Made by a program: the position numbers and the translations under genes
NCBI GenBank assembly: GCA_903907995.1
Contig: CAIVQH010000019.1
Span: 186,001-250,000 of the forward strand
Reading direction: 5' to 3'
Origin: an uncultured Verrucomicrobiota bacterium
Lineage (GTDB): Bacteria > Verrucomicrobiota > Verrucomicrobiia > Limisphaerales > UBA9464
DNA length: 64,000 nucleotides
Notes under the pieces: generated by a model
Databases searched by the model: none
What the model was told of the DNA's origin: nothing
The model's input: only the letters and a program-made list of their open reading frames with translations
Shown: positions 28,422 through 32,221 of the stretch, in pieces
Layout: every line of letters starts with the position of its first letter
Position numbering within the stretch: the first letter of the stretch is position 1

Positions 28422-29393
28422 TTACTTCTGCTCGCGGGCCCGCGGGTGGGCCTGGTCGTAAACTTTCTTCAGCCGGTCCAACGTCAGGTGGGTGTACACC
28501 TCGGTGCTGGAGAGCCGGGTGTGGCCGAGCAGTTCCTGCACGCCGCGCAGGTCGGCCCCGCGATCCAGCAGGTGGGTGGCGAAGCTGTGACGGAGCTTGT
28601 GGGGCGTGAGCGCGGGATCAAGCCCTGCGGCGGCCAGATACCGCTTCAGGCCGCGCTGAACGGTCTGGGGTTGGACGGGCTCAAACGAATTTTCGGCGGC
28701 GACGAACACCGGCAGTCCGGGCGCGAGCGGATGCTTCACCGCGCCCCAATAACGCTCGATGGCAGCGGCGGCCGGCCGGCCCAACGGAACGTGCCGCTCT
28801 TTCTTGCCCTTGCCGCGGATAAGCAGGGTGCGACCCGCGCGGTCATACTCCTCGGTTCTCAACCCGCAGACTTCGCTGATGCGGAGCCCCGAGGAATAGA
28901 TCGTTTCCAGCAGGGCGGCATCGCGCAGAAATGGGATCGCGTCCACCGGACCATCGCTGCGTGCCTGCTCCTTCGCCAGCTCGCGGAGCGGTGCTTCGAG
29001 CAGGGCGTTGATCTGGTCCTCGGTGAGAAACTGGGGCAGGCGCTTTTCCGACTTGGGCAGGGCGAGGTCGCGGATCGGCAGCCGGCTGATGGCGCCTTCG
29101 CGCAGCAGAAATTTGTAGAAGGTGCGCAGCGCGCTGAAGCGGAGCTGGATGGCGGCCCGGCTCAGCTGCTGCCGGCCCAGCTTGCGGAGAAAGCGGCGGA
29201 AATCATCGCGCTCCAGCTCCGGCCAGCGGGGAGCCGAGCCGGCCTCCGCCTGCCACCAGGCGCCGAATTCCGCTAGCGCGTGGTCATAGTTGCGGACGGT
29301 GTAAACCGACGCGCCCCGCTCGGAAGCGAGGTGCTGATGGAAGCGTTCCCGCCACAAATCGGGCGTCGGGGCAGGGGAAACGGGCTCGTCCAC
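28422..29393 (-). CDS. xerC: Tyrosine recombinase XerC-like
   Basis: 323 residues. The N-terminal SAM-like DNA-binding domain spans about 15-110 and the catalytic domain follows. Catalytic residues are visible: Arg in YSSGLRISEV, Lys in GKGKKERHV, His-x-x-Arg in HKLRHSFATHL, and His/Tyr in LGHTRLSSTEVYTH. Most likely the chromosome-dimer resolvase. XerD is equally possible from sequence alone. It is adjacent to, but divergent from, tRNA-Tyr; no integrated element is evident. Confidence 0.9.
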   Translation of the reverse strand: MDEPVSPAPTPDLWRERFHQHLASERGASVYTVRNYDHALAEFGAWWQAEAGSAPRWPELERDDFRRFLRKLGRQQLSRAAIQLRFSALRTFYKFLLREGAISRLPIRDLALPKSEKRLPQFLTEDQINALLEAPLRELAKEQARSDGPVDAIPFLRDAALLETIYSSGLRISEVCGLRTEEYDRAGRTLLIRGKGKKERHVPLGRPAAAAIERYWGAVKHPLAPGLPVFVAAENSFEPVQPQTVQRGLKRYLAAAGLDPALTPHKLRHSFATHLLDRGADLRGVQELLGHTRLSSTEVYTHLTLDRLKKVYDQAHPRAREQK

Positions 29394-29507: not shown

Positions 29508-29593
29508 GGTAGGTTATCCAAGTGGCCAAAGGGTGCAGACTGTAAATCTGTCGGCTCACGCCTTCGCTGGTTCGACTCCAGCACCTACCACCA
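29508..29593 (+). tRNA. tRNA-Tyr (anticodon GTA)
   Basis: The 7-bp acceptor stem GGTAGGT/ACCTACC (29508-29514 and 29583-29589) is followed by A and an encoded CCA. The anticodon loop CTGTAAA carries GTA. The long variable arm and TTCGACT T-loop fit a class II tRNA-Tyr of 86 nt including CCA. Confidence 0.96.
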
Positions 29594-29631: not shown

Positions 29632-29704
29632 ACTTGGCGGAAAATCCCTTTGACACTTTCCCGGCCTTTGGCTCATTCATTCGCCGCTCCGGGAAACCGG
29701 GGTA

Positions 29705-29827
29705 CTCATCCAGAGTGACCGAGGGTACGGCCCGATGACGTCACGGCAACCGGTCGGACTGGCAGTCCGACGACCAGGTGCCAAATCCGGTCCGCAGTTC
29801 CGACAACGGGAAGGCGGCAAAGATGAG
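29705..29827 (+). promoter_or_regulatory. SAM riboswitch (S-box, SAM-I type)
   Basis: Conserved S-box pieces occur in order. P1 is CTCATC (29705-29710) with GATGAG (29822-29827). The core includes CAGAGTGACCGAGGG, GGCCCGATGA and CGGCAACC, then AGGTGCCAAATCC. Just downstream GAGAAGAG (29825-29832) can pair with CTCTTCTC (29850-29857). That stem shares bases with P1, so the two are mutually exclusive, as expected of an expression platform. It ends 98 bp before the threonine-synthase-like gene, so high SAM should lower expression of that operon. Confidence 0.88.
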
Positions 29828-29925
29828 AAGAGCCGGTCATGCTTTTGCCCTCTTCTCGTCCGTACGTGAAGCGGGCTTTTGTTTGCCCGGATCACGTCGC
29901 CACGGCGAAAGCACGACGCAAAGCC

Positions 29926-31188
29926 ATGAGTGACAAGCAAGGTTACATGAAGGCGCTGAAGTGCCGCGAGTGCGGCCGGGAATACCCGCTCACCGCCACC
30001 CACGTCTGCGAGTTCGATTTCGGCCCGCTCGAGGTCGCCTACGACTATGAGCGTATCAGGAAATCGCTCAGCCGCGAGGCCATCTGCTCCCGCCCCCAGA
30101 CCATGTGGCGCTACCACGAGCTGCTGCCGGTCGCCGGCGAGCCCACCGTGGGCCGCCAGGTGGGCTACACGCCGTTGGTGAAGGCCGACCGCCTCGCCAA
30201 GCGCCTGGGCGTCCGTGAGCTGTGGGTGAAGAACGACGCGGTGAACTACCCCACGCTGTCCTTCAAGGACCGCGTGGTCTCCGTCGCGCTGAGCCGCTCG
30301 GTGGAGCTGGGCTTCAAGACCGTGGCCTGTGCCTCGACCGGCAACCTGGCCAATTCCGTCGCCGCCAACGCCGCCGCCGCCGGGCTCGATGCCTACGTGT
30401 TCATCCCGTCCGACCTGGAGCAGGGCAAGATCGTCAACTCGCTGGTCTATGGCGCGAATGTCATCGGCATCAAGGGCCACTACGACGAGGTGAACCGCCT
30501 CTGCGCCGAGATCGCCGGCAAGTACGGCTGGGCGTTTGTGAACGTCAATATGCGCCCCTACTACGCCGAGGGCAGCAAGAGCATGGGCTTCGAGATCGTC
30601 GAGCAGCTCGGCTGGCGGATCCCGGAACACACCATCATCCCGATGGCGTCGGGCTCCCTGCTGACCAAGGTTCACAAGGCTTACCAGGAATTCATCAAGA
30701 TCGGCGTCATGGACGAGGCCAAATGGAAGATGCACGGCGCGCAGGCGACCGGTTGCTCGCCCATCAGCGCCGCGCAGAAGGCGGGTCTGGATTTCTTCAA
30801 GCCGGTCAAGCCGAACACCATCGCGAAGTCGCTCGCCATCGGCACTCCCGCCGACGGCTTCTATGCGCTCAAGGTGATGAAGGAGACCGGTGGCCACAGC
30901 GATGATGTGACCGACGACGAGATCCGCGAGGGCATCCGCATCCTGGCCGAGGACGAGGGCATCTTTGCCGAGACCGCCGGCGGTGTGACCGTGGGCGTGG
31001 CGAAGAAGCTCATCGCCTCGGGACGGATCGCTGCCGACTCCAGCGCGGTGCTGTGCATCACCGGCAACGGGCTGAAGACCATCGAGGCGATGACCGGCCA
31101 CGTGGGGCAGACCCGCGACATCCGGCCGAGCCTGCGCGAGTTCGAGGCGCTGCTGGCCCAGGACAAACCGCAACTGGTGAAGGGCTGA
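29926..31188 (+). CDS. thrC: Threonine synthase-like PLP enzyme under a SAM riboswitch
   Basis: 420 residues. An N-terminal zinc-ribbon-like segment (LKCRECGREYPL) precedes a fold-type II PLP enzyme with the cofactor lysine in TLSFKDRVV, the glycine-rich phosphate loop CASTGNLANSVAANAA and GNGLKT near the end. By family it converts O-phosphohomoserine to threonine. However, it lies behind an S-box and upstream of two ThiS/MoaD-like sulfur carriers and a NIL-domain protein. An alternative role in homocysteine formation is therefore worth testing (inference). ATG 29947, preceded by AAGG, is a second possible start. Confidence 0.9.
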   Translation: MSDKQGYMKALKCRECGREYPLTATHVCEFDFGPLEVAYDYERIRKSLSREAICSRPQTMWRYHELLPVAGEPTVGRQVGYTPLVKADRLAKRLGVRELWVKNDAVNYPTLSFKDRVVSVALSRSVELGFKTVACASTGNLANSVAANAAAAGLDAYVFIPSDLEQGKIVNSLVYGANVIGIKGHYDEVNRLCAEIAGKYGWAFVNVNMRPYYAEGSKSMGFEIVEQLGWRIPEHTIIPMASGSLLTKVHKAYQEFIKIGVMDEAKWKMHGAQATGCSPISAAQKAGLDFFKPVKPNTIAKSLAIGTPADGFYALKVMKETGGHSDDVTDDEIREGIRILAEDEGIFAETAGGVTVGVAKKLIASGRIAADSSAVLCITGNGLKTIEAMTGHVGQTRDIRPSLREFEALLAQDKPQLVKG

Positions 31189-31244
31189 GCAGGCCGGACA
31201 GCATCAAGCACCGGCGGGCCACCGCCGATATCCCCTTGAACGAC

Positions 31245-31517
31245 ATGATCCAGATTTCGATTCCGCCCACCCTGCGCCGCTTCTGCGGCGACCAGGAGAA
31301 CGTGGCCGTCGCGCCCGGCACCGTGGCCAGCGCGATCGAGCAGCTCCATGACCGCTTCAACGGCATTCGTGACCGGCTGCTGGACCCGCAGGGAAACGTG
31401 CGGGGCAGCGTGCTGGTCTTTGTGAACCAGGAGGATATCCGCTTCCTGCAGAACCAGCAGACCCCGCTGAGCCCAGGCGACGTGGTCAGCATCATCCCGG
31501 CATTTGCCGGCGGCTGA
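31245..31517 (+). CDS. ThiS/MoaD-like sulfur-carrier protein (copy 1)
   Basis: 90 residues from ATG 31245. It has the beta-grasp pattern of ThiS/MoaD proteins: IQISIPPTLRRFC, VAPGTVASAIEQL, EDIRFLQNQQTPLSPGD, and the required C-terminal Gly-Gly (IIPAFAGG). That terminus is adenylated and converted to a thiocarboxylate by E1-like enzymes. It starts 56 bp after the thrC-like gene. No moaE, thiG or molybdopterin genes are nearby, so it more likely serves amino-acid sulfur transfer. Confidence 0.88.
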   Translation: MIQISIPPTLRRFCGDQENVAVAPGTVASAIEQLHDRFNGIRDRLLDPQGNVRGSVLVFVNQEDIRFLQNQQTPLSPGDVVSIIPAFAGG

Positions 31518-31573
31518 TTTTCACCGCTTGCCCGCGCCCCATCCATCTCCGACAGTCCCGTCCTCGTATCGCT

Positions 31574-31849
31574 ATGTCCGTCAAAGTCCGCATCCCCACT
31601 CCGCTCCGCAAGCTCACCAATGAGCAGGAGCTCGTCGAAGTCGCGCCCGGCACCATAGGTGCCGCCATCCTTGAATTGCAGCAGCGGTTCCCGGGCATTC
31701 AGGAACGCCTGGTGGATGACGCCGGGCAGGTCCGCCGCTTCGTGAATATCTACGTGAACGAGGAGGACATCCGTTTCCTGCAGAACAGCGACACGCCGCT
31801 GAAGAGCGGTGACGAGGTGAGCATCATCCCCGCGATCGCCGGGGGTTGA
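31574..31849 (+). CDS. ThiS/MoaD-like sulfur-carrier protein (copy 2)
   Basis: 91 residues. A clear paralogue of the preceding gene: VKVRIPTPLRKLT, VEVAPGTIGAAILEL, EDIRFLQNSDTPLKSGD and the same IIPAIAGG end. Two carriers in tandem suggest either a recent duplication with different partner enzymes or increased dosage. Co-directional, 56 bp after copy 1. Confidence 0.89.
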   Translation: MSVKVRIPTPLRKLTNEQELVEVAPGTIGAAILELQQRFPGIQERLVDDAGQVRRFVNIYVNEEDIRFLQNSDTPLKSGDEVSIIPAIAGG

Positions 31850-31886
31850 TCGTCGTAAACGTCTGCGCCCCAATCCAAGGTTTCCC

Positions 31887-32168
31887 ATGGCCGCCAAGAA
31901 ATCCAAGTCCTCGAAGTTCGCCACTCCCAGCAGCGCGCGGCTGTGGCTTATGTACCCGCCGAAGCTCATCAAGCAGCCGGTCATCTGGGAGCTCACCCAC
32001 AAGTTTGACCTGGTTACCAACGTGCGGCAGGCGAGTGTCACCGACGAGATCGGCATCGTGTGCCTCGAACTCGAAGGAGCACCGGCCGAGGTCGAGGCCG
32101 GAATCAAATGGCTCCGGAAGCTTGGAGTGAACGTCGAGCCGGTCGAGCTCGGCACTGTCGAGTCCTGA
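31887..32168 (+). CDS. NIL-domain protein
   Basis: 93 residues: a Lys/Ser-rich N-terminus followed by a NIL domain (ARLWLMYPPKLIKQPVIWEL, then FDLVTNVRQASVTDEIGIV and LEGAPAEVEAGIKWLRKLG). NIL domains occur at the C-terminus of the methionine importer ATPase MetN and in proteins of reductive homocysteine synthesis, where they bind sulfur amino acids. Its place at the end of the riboswitch operon supports a methionine-related role. A terminator follows. Confidence 0.86.
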   Translation: MAAKKSKSSKFATPSSARLWLMYPPKLIKQPVIWELTHKFDLVTNVRQASVTDEIGIVCLELEGAPAEVEAGIKWLRKLGVNVEPVELGTVES

Positions 32169-32200
32169 TGGCCTTGATACCTTCCCAAAATCTGCCGACG

Positions 32201-32221
32201 GCCCGCTTCGGCGGGCTTTTT
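32201..32221 (+). terminator. Rho-independent terminator of the thrC-like operon
   Basis: GCCCGC-TTCG-GCGGGC (32201-32216) with a stable UUCG-type tetraloop, followed by five T. Confidence 0.92.

Follow-up and report, generated by a model that had tools for sequence, protein, structure and literature searches.

The stretch analyzed here (the window) comprises 64,000 nucleotides from an uncultured Verrucomicrobiota bacterium of the order Limisphaerales (GCA_903907995.1, contig CAIVQH010000019.1, positions 186,001 to 250,000). Its forward strand carries an operon with an S-adenosylmethionine (SAM) riboswitch, a threonine synthase (ThrC)-like enzyme, two sulfur-carrier proteins and a NIL-domain protein. 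The riboswitch aptamer (S-box, RF00162) lies at 29703-29829 and was scored by Infernal at 71.4 bits (gathering score 44.4, E 1e-14); it is the sole S-box found in the genome among the best 125 of 409 candidates scored. A pattern scan located in the leader a terminator-like stem with a T-rich tail (29858-29876), a candidate expression platform. The enzyme gene follows at 29926-31188 and encodes a fold-type II pyridoxal phosphate (PLP) protein of 420 aa that matches TIGR00260, NF006050 and Pfam PALP, and which we propose to be a MetM-like homocysteine synthase. Next come the genes of two ThiS/MoaD-family proteins of 90 aa (31245-31517, Pfam ThiS E 1.5e-13) and 91 aa (31574-31849, E 4.8e-18), both MetO-like and ending in Gly-Gly (GG), and the gene of the NIL-domain protein (31887-32168, Pfam NIL E 1.6e-11), a proposed methionine-sensing subunit. 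A terminator-like stem-loop at 32200-32217 and its T-rich tail TTTTCGTTGA stand at the end, in a window where the scan found 6 such sites against 1.9 expected from shuffles. Apart from the leader stem, these elements had been named in an interpretation made from the letters alone (the sequence-only reading), and the RNA and protein family matches together with the pattern scan bear them out.

The sequence-only reading had also suggested that the enzyme forms homocysteine from O-phosphohomoserine and a carrier thiocarboxylate. Gene content, the replacement of the MetB/MetY route described below and the Streptomyces MetM/MetO precedent (PMC12172450, in passages) argue for this proposal, and we consider it highly probable (roughly 0.88) that the operon makes homocysteine for methionine in the MetM/MetO manner. 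According to passages of the same paper, which cites Hasebe et al. 2024, MetM of Streptomyces albulus forms homocysteine from O-phosphohomoserine, metM is preceded by a SAM riboswitch, and the adjacent metO belongs to the sulfur-carrier family.

By profile, the enzyme scores 272 bits against TIGR00260 thrC (cut-off 167) and 296 bits against NF006050, slightly below the cut-off of 303. Its best families are threonine synthases, and the CysM profile covered residues 74-183 alone, at 38 bits against a cut-off of 413. A structure model of modest quality (mean pLDDT 71.5, below 50 at 208-215 and 290-306 among others) also placed threonine synthases on top in a fold comparison (Z 27.6-32.4), with CapA2 (29.5) and TrpB (26) among the matches. 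The operon could then encode a second threonine synthase under SAM control, as its equivalog score above cut-off and its fold would suggest, and a Microcystis homologue is indeed described with threonine synthase activity in passages of PMC12172450. We find this very unlikely, since carriers and a NIL protein would be pointless for such an enzyme, which occurs where the MetB/MetY route is missing, and since a canonical ThrC is already present. Hereafter, G000 denotes the genome of the window, C-numbers contigs, L-numbers loci and other G-numbers the compared genomes. The sequence-only reading had proposed looking for a further thrC, and an ordinary one lies in G000 at C46:209187-210158. A sequence matching the homoserine dehydrogenase portion of ThrA from E. 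coli lies 1.8 kb upstream of it, and the product of this thrC is 38% identical to the window enzyme.

In a tree built by a quick method, 24 ThrC-like enzymes fell on one side of a branch with an SH-aLRT of 100, opposite 17 canonical ThrC and 2 outgroups; an actinomycete row sits on a long branch within the ThrC-like side, and one of the 25 chosen rows was filtered as redundant. The alignment shows that the catalytic Lys114 (numbering of the 420-aa protein) is retained in the ThrC-like enzymes. Arg210, Ser217, Ala241, Lys248, Gly353 and Thr385 are fixed in 91/91 ThrC-like rows and differ from the majority of 17 canonical rows at each position, and Thr350, found in 89 of the 91, also differs from the canonical majority; redundant rows and a canonical row interrupted by a stop (L189) were omitted from this comparison. 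In the alignment, several of these clade-specific residues presumably lie close to the sites that bind the substrate phosphate and the PLP phosphate in Thermus ThrC. Judged from these comparisons of sequence, the ThrC-like enzyme is not the threonine synthase of this genome.

The arrangement of the operon is conserved far beyond chance, in agreement with the order that the sequence-only reading had expected to recur in relatives. From 116 loci, the removal of 8 duplicates left 108 distinct ones, and that of 11 with short downstream sequence left 97, the window's own included. Downstream of the enzyme, a carrier was found at 94 and a NIL protein at 78 of the 97 loci. The NIL gene comes after a single carrier at 70 of them and after two carriers at 8; 13 loci have one carrier without NIL, 2 have two and 1 gives three carrier hits, and 3 show neither protein. 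The carriers end in GG in 95 of 106 cases, and 7 have no readable GG end owing to frame breaks or partial starts. An S-box precedes the enzyme in 27 of 30 testable relatives (it is missing in L197, L199 and L203; L192 is outside the count). When 17 genomes were scanned for S-boxes by scoring the best-looking candidates, at most 125 per genome, 13 had exactly one, each directly upstream of the ThrC-like gene, and the four without an S-box, one of them 54% complete, also had no ThrC-like gene.

Named titles among the best 80 of 594 matched stretches are mostly Verrucomicrobiota, some of them Limisphaerales, Pedosphaera or subdivision 3, and a few read just "bacterium". Contigs from metagenome-assembled genomes titled Klebsiella pneumoniae (one) or Akkermansia muciniphila (several) also bear the operon (L145, L077, L078, L084 and others); these labels are probably wrong, and the Klebsiella contig probably comes from a mislabelled bin. 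Upstream of the operon, the window holds a tyrosine-recombinase-like open reading frame (ORF) assigned by eye (28422-29393, reverse strand) and a tRNA-Tyr (29508-29593, forward strand).

Two further explanations were weighed. The enzyme could be an O-phosphohomoserine sulfhydrylase using free sulfide, with carriers that serve another thiolation and are merely co-located, and sulfide can indeed substitute for protein donors in related enzymes. This is unlikely given the carrier downstream of the enzyme at nearly all testable loci and in the actinomycete Nonomuraea, and given that the Xiphinematobacter-like genome G201 keeps a carrier beside the enzyme though no moaABCDE or moeA match was found there. 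Alternatively, the operon could encode a cysteine synthase of CysM/CysO type acting on O-phosphoserine: the best solved relative of carrier 2 is 3dwg chain C (E 7.5e-21), labelled 9.5 kDa culture filtrate antigen cfp10A, which we take to be CysO. This explanation is extremely unlikely, as S-boxes are typical of methionine/SAM genes, the enzyme is related to ThrC and not to CysM, and a CysK sharing 56% identity with the E. coli one is encoded on the same contig of G000, so that the operon is unneeded for cysteine.

Homocysteine synthesis by carrier thiocarboxylate is further supported by the distribution of the usual route. This route was followed through PF01053, the family of MetB/MetC/MetY-type (Cys/Met-PLP) enzymes, and through MetX. 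At E<=0.001, PF01053 was counted in 145/145 relatives owing to weak matches; hence a strong match was defined by E<1e-50 among these 145 relatives and by E<=1e-30 among 387 genomes drawn over the phylum, where at most 4 best-looking candidates per genome were scored for the enzyme and for PF01053. For MetX, E<1e-50 was used, the curated cut-off being reached in no relative or control. The sequence-only reading had asked after metX, metB and metY in the genome of the window; in G000, the genome profile search found no MetX and no PF01053 match at E<=1e-30, the best weak match having an E of 8.9e-6. A MetA would serve no purpose in the absence of a PF01053 enzyme.

Over the phylum, PF01053 was found in 357 of the 387 genomes and the ThrC-like enzyme in 17 (E<1e-190, the next match being at 1.9e-80). 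PF01053 is absent from 16 of the 17 genomes with the enzyme versus 14 of the 370 without it (Fisher test, 2.7e-19, kinship ignored). These 17 genomes represent 10 families, of which 9 are without PF01053, and within one family, f77, the enzyme without PF01053 occurs in two genomes and the reverse in a third. The PF01053 route is the rule in the phylum, and the ThrC-like route clusters in the order of the window and some further families. The enzyme, counting fragments, is present in 101 of the 145 relatives and missing from 44; strong PF01053 was detected in 19/101 versus 24/44 and MetX in 11/101 versus 25/44. DUF39, the mark of another homocysteine route, was found in 0/145 genomes (3 of 14 control genomes were positive). 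In the order of the window and in some other families, Methylacidiphilaceae and Xiphinematobacter included, the operon seems to be the principal homocysteine route.

Six of the 17 enzyme-bearing genomes belong to one family, measure 2.2-2.5 Mb and all have pmoA; we infer that they are Methylacidiphilaceae. The enzyme, the carrier and the NIL protein are present in all six, the S-box in five, and PF01053 in none. Passages of PMC12341988 report that a genome-scale model of Methylacidiphilum fumariolicum (2024) lacked genomic evidence for L-homocysteine and was completed with orphan reactions, and that this species was cultured in ammonium mineral salts medium. For M. infernorum, passages of PMC2474590 name no methionine gap and state the prediction that most key routes to all the amino acids are present. 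As for Xiphinematobacter americani, methionine is given as the exception among the retained essential amino acid pathways in passages of PMC4607532, and similarly of PMC7857533. In the Xiphinematobacter-like G201, the enzyme adjoins a carrier, with no S-box and no NIL beside them, and matches were found to thrA, thrB (25%, E 2.8e-8), metK, iscS, thiG and an E1. Conversely, E. coli metE, metH, metF, moaA-E and moeA found no counterpart in G201 at E<=1e-3, nor was PF02574, the homocysteine methyltransferase domain, found there. We speculate that G201 might make homocysteine and leave its methylation to the host animal, methionine synthesis being split between symbiont and host.

Partner proteins were looked for in the enzyme-bearing genomes. 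The MoeB/ThiF-like E1 that the sequence-only reading had expected is detected at E<=1.3e-76 in 22 of 23 genomes (the exception is G465), and in the four genomes scanned for domains (G000, G201, G186 and G265) the ThiF-type E1 bears a rhodanese domain; in G000 it is encoded on contig C31, away from the operon. Of 22 genomes, 20 have PF02574. In 12 of these, G000 included, the ORF bearing it measures 1246-1338 aa, a length expected of MetH; in the six with pmoA it measures 613-848 aa. We propose that the E1-rhodanese would adenylate and thiolate the carriers at their Gly-Gly end. The ThrC-like enzyme would draw O-phosphohomoserine from the threonine pathway and eliminate phosphate as ThrC does, after which the carrier thiocarboxylate would add at C-gamma, in place of water at C-beta. 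The product would be released as homocysteine and methylated by the MetH-type protein. At plentiful SAM the riboswitch would shut the operon off, and the NIL protein would probably sense methionine.

The JAB-type peptidase that the sequence-only reading had also counted among the partners did not stand: no match over the cut-off was obtained in 15 of 19 genomes, and none was found in the six pmoA-bearing and two Xiphinematobacter-like genomes. Its absence from most genomes implies that the product is released without JAB or by another enzyme. We rejected JAB as a general required part on these counts and because the JAB of G000 (C19:252451-253035) belongs to another cluster. This cluster lies directly beyond the window (G000:C19:250576-253035, L208:5576-8035), comprises a ThiF-like E1, a UQ_con E2-like protein and the JAB with PADLOC E1-E2 matches, and is a bacterial ubiquitin-like conjugation operon. 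A JAB/ThiF pair also occurs in G003:C58, and in G265 (L254:5954-8113) a JAB gene is followed by a carrier fused to E1-rhodanese. Carriers with 1-7 residues after GG were found at four loci (L054, L060, L095 and L200), with a strong JAB in three of these genomes. In a post hoc comparison of the 38 genomes for which carrier end and JAB status could both be read, such tails occurred in 3 of 7 genomes with strong JAB (E<=1e-10) versus 0 of 31 others, G000, G003 and G110 (JAB E 2e-10 to 1e-9) being placed among the others; the p of 0.004 was computed with 32 others, one unread carrier being counted. These tails bring to mind Wolinella, in which HcyD trims HcyS.

Several observations weigh against a MetM/MetO-type route and have to be set beside it. 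The enzyme and strong PF01053 occur together in 19 of the 101 enzyme-bearing relatives, and neither was found in 20 of the 44 others, 15 of which are less than 90% complete and 5 not. A JAB match over the cut-off is lacking in 15 of the 19 genomes, and the presence of thiG in G201 means that its E1 may be kept for thiamin. Going by the alignment, the residues near the substrate phosphate site are unlike those of canonical ThrC, so the substrate could differ. Finally, the Microcystis homologue, 51.6% identical to MetM, showed threonine synthase and threonine deaminase activities in vitro and no clear homocysteine in the passages of PMC12172450; similarity alone therefore fixes no activity.

The NIL protein resembles the C-terminal C2 (NIL) domain of the transporter protein MetN. 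A profile of 25 NIL proteins matched this domain best among solved structures (E 3.1e-8), and a Foldseek search with the NIL model (pLDDT 81.6) gave 11 hits at E<=0.001, all of them MetN or C-terminal/NIL domains of ABC transporter proteins. With the MetN C2 domain (3dhx/3tui) it shares a common fold and an asparagine: Asn45, invariant in 25/25 proteins and present in 21/23 of another set, aligns with MetN Asn295. The MetN chain 6cvl has an Ala at the position of Asn295, presumably a mutation made to abolish methionine binding. Unlike MetN C2, the NIL protein is free-standing here, outside any transporter. Because of this likeness and of the Asn45/Asn295 alignment, we propose that it is a methionine-sensing subunit. 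More tentatively, and at somewhat less than even odds, it could be a dedicated sensor that binds and shuts the MetM/MetO enzyme, which would give a double feedback, SAM acting on the RNA and methionine on the protein. The operon thereby gives the NIL domain a testable job. NIL as a third component of a thiocarboxylate homocysteine route was not seen in the literature searched, which covers few subscription papers.

If the proposed route is true, the operon provides genes for published gaps, namely that in the homocysteine supply of Methylacidiphilum (PMC12341988) and that in the methionine pathway of Xiphinematobacter (PMC4607532, PMC7857533), as far as passages of these papers describe them. 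Since automatic annotation takes the enzyme for a threonine synthase, genomes that depend on this operon would be mistaken for methionine auxotrophs. Passages of PMC5764234 name the homocysteine routes of Aquifex, Pyrolobus and Acidimicrobium as unsolved, a question that the ThrC-like route makes directly searchable.

Among known systems, the Streptomyces MetM/MetO pair, by its published description, shares with the operon a ThrC-like enzyme, an adjoining gene of the sulfur-carrier family and an upstream SAM riboswitch. The nearest sequence stand-in for S. albulus MetM was the homologue from Nonomuraea gerenzanensis, where an S-box (68.7 bits), the enzyme (53% identity over 98%) and a carrier (48%) follow each other in the same order, which agrees with the arrangement published for metM/metO of S. 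albulus; no NIL match was found in the 21 kb stretch. This locus is a chromosome filed as a plasmid, the view outside the phylum resting on plasmid records, and the other 147 plasmid records with an enzyme match are all below 60% identity, those listed being at 35-37%. Unlike the Streptomyces pair, the verrucomicrobial operons belong to another phylum, mostly add a NIL protein and sometimes have a second carrier. MetO is reportedly the thiocarboxylate donor, and the pathway is said to be present in other bacteria. The CysM/CysO system of mycobacteria likewise combines a fold-type II PLP enzyme, a carrier and an E1-rhodanese, but makes cysteine from O-phosphoserine with an enzyme of another branch of fold type II. 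In the HcyS/HcyD/HcyF route of Wolinella a carrier thiocarboxylate is also the sulfur donor for homocysteine; that route uses MetY (PF01053) and a JAB peptidase, whereas G000 has no strong PF01053 and JAB is absent from most genomes tested. In the passages of PMC5764234, the Wolinella system appears only as "protein thiocarboxylate pathway". The DUF39/NIL-ferredoxin route described in the same passages has a NIL protein in homocysteine synthesis too, but DUF39 is lacking in the 145 genomes and the NIL protein here is short, Pfam matching NIL alone and no ferredoxin domain. No paper on the operon in Verrucomicrobiota turned up in the literature searched, most subscription papers being outside its coverage, and the passages of PMC7311316, PMC7857596 and PMC12452182 hold nothing on a carrier-based homocysteine route. 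By analogy, the core chemistry would already be known, the operon being a verrucomicrobial version of the Streptomyces MetM/MetO route, and what is new, as far as the searches show, is the extension to Verrucomicrobiota, the filled methionine gaps and the NIL component.

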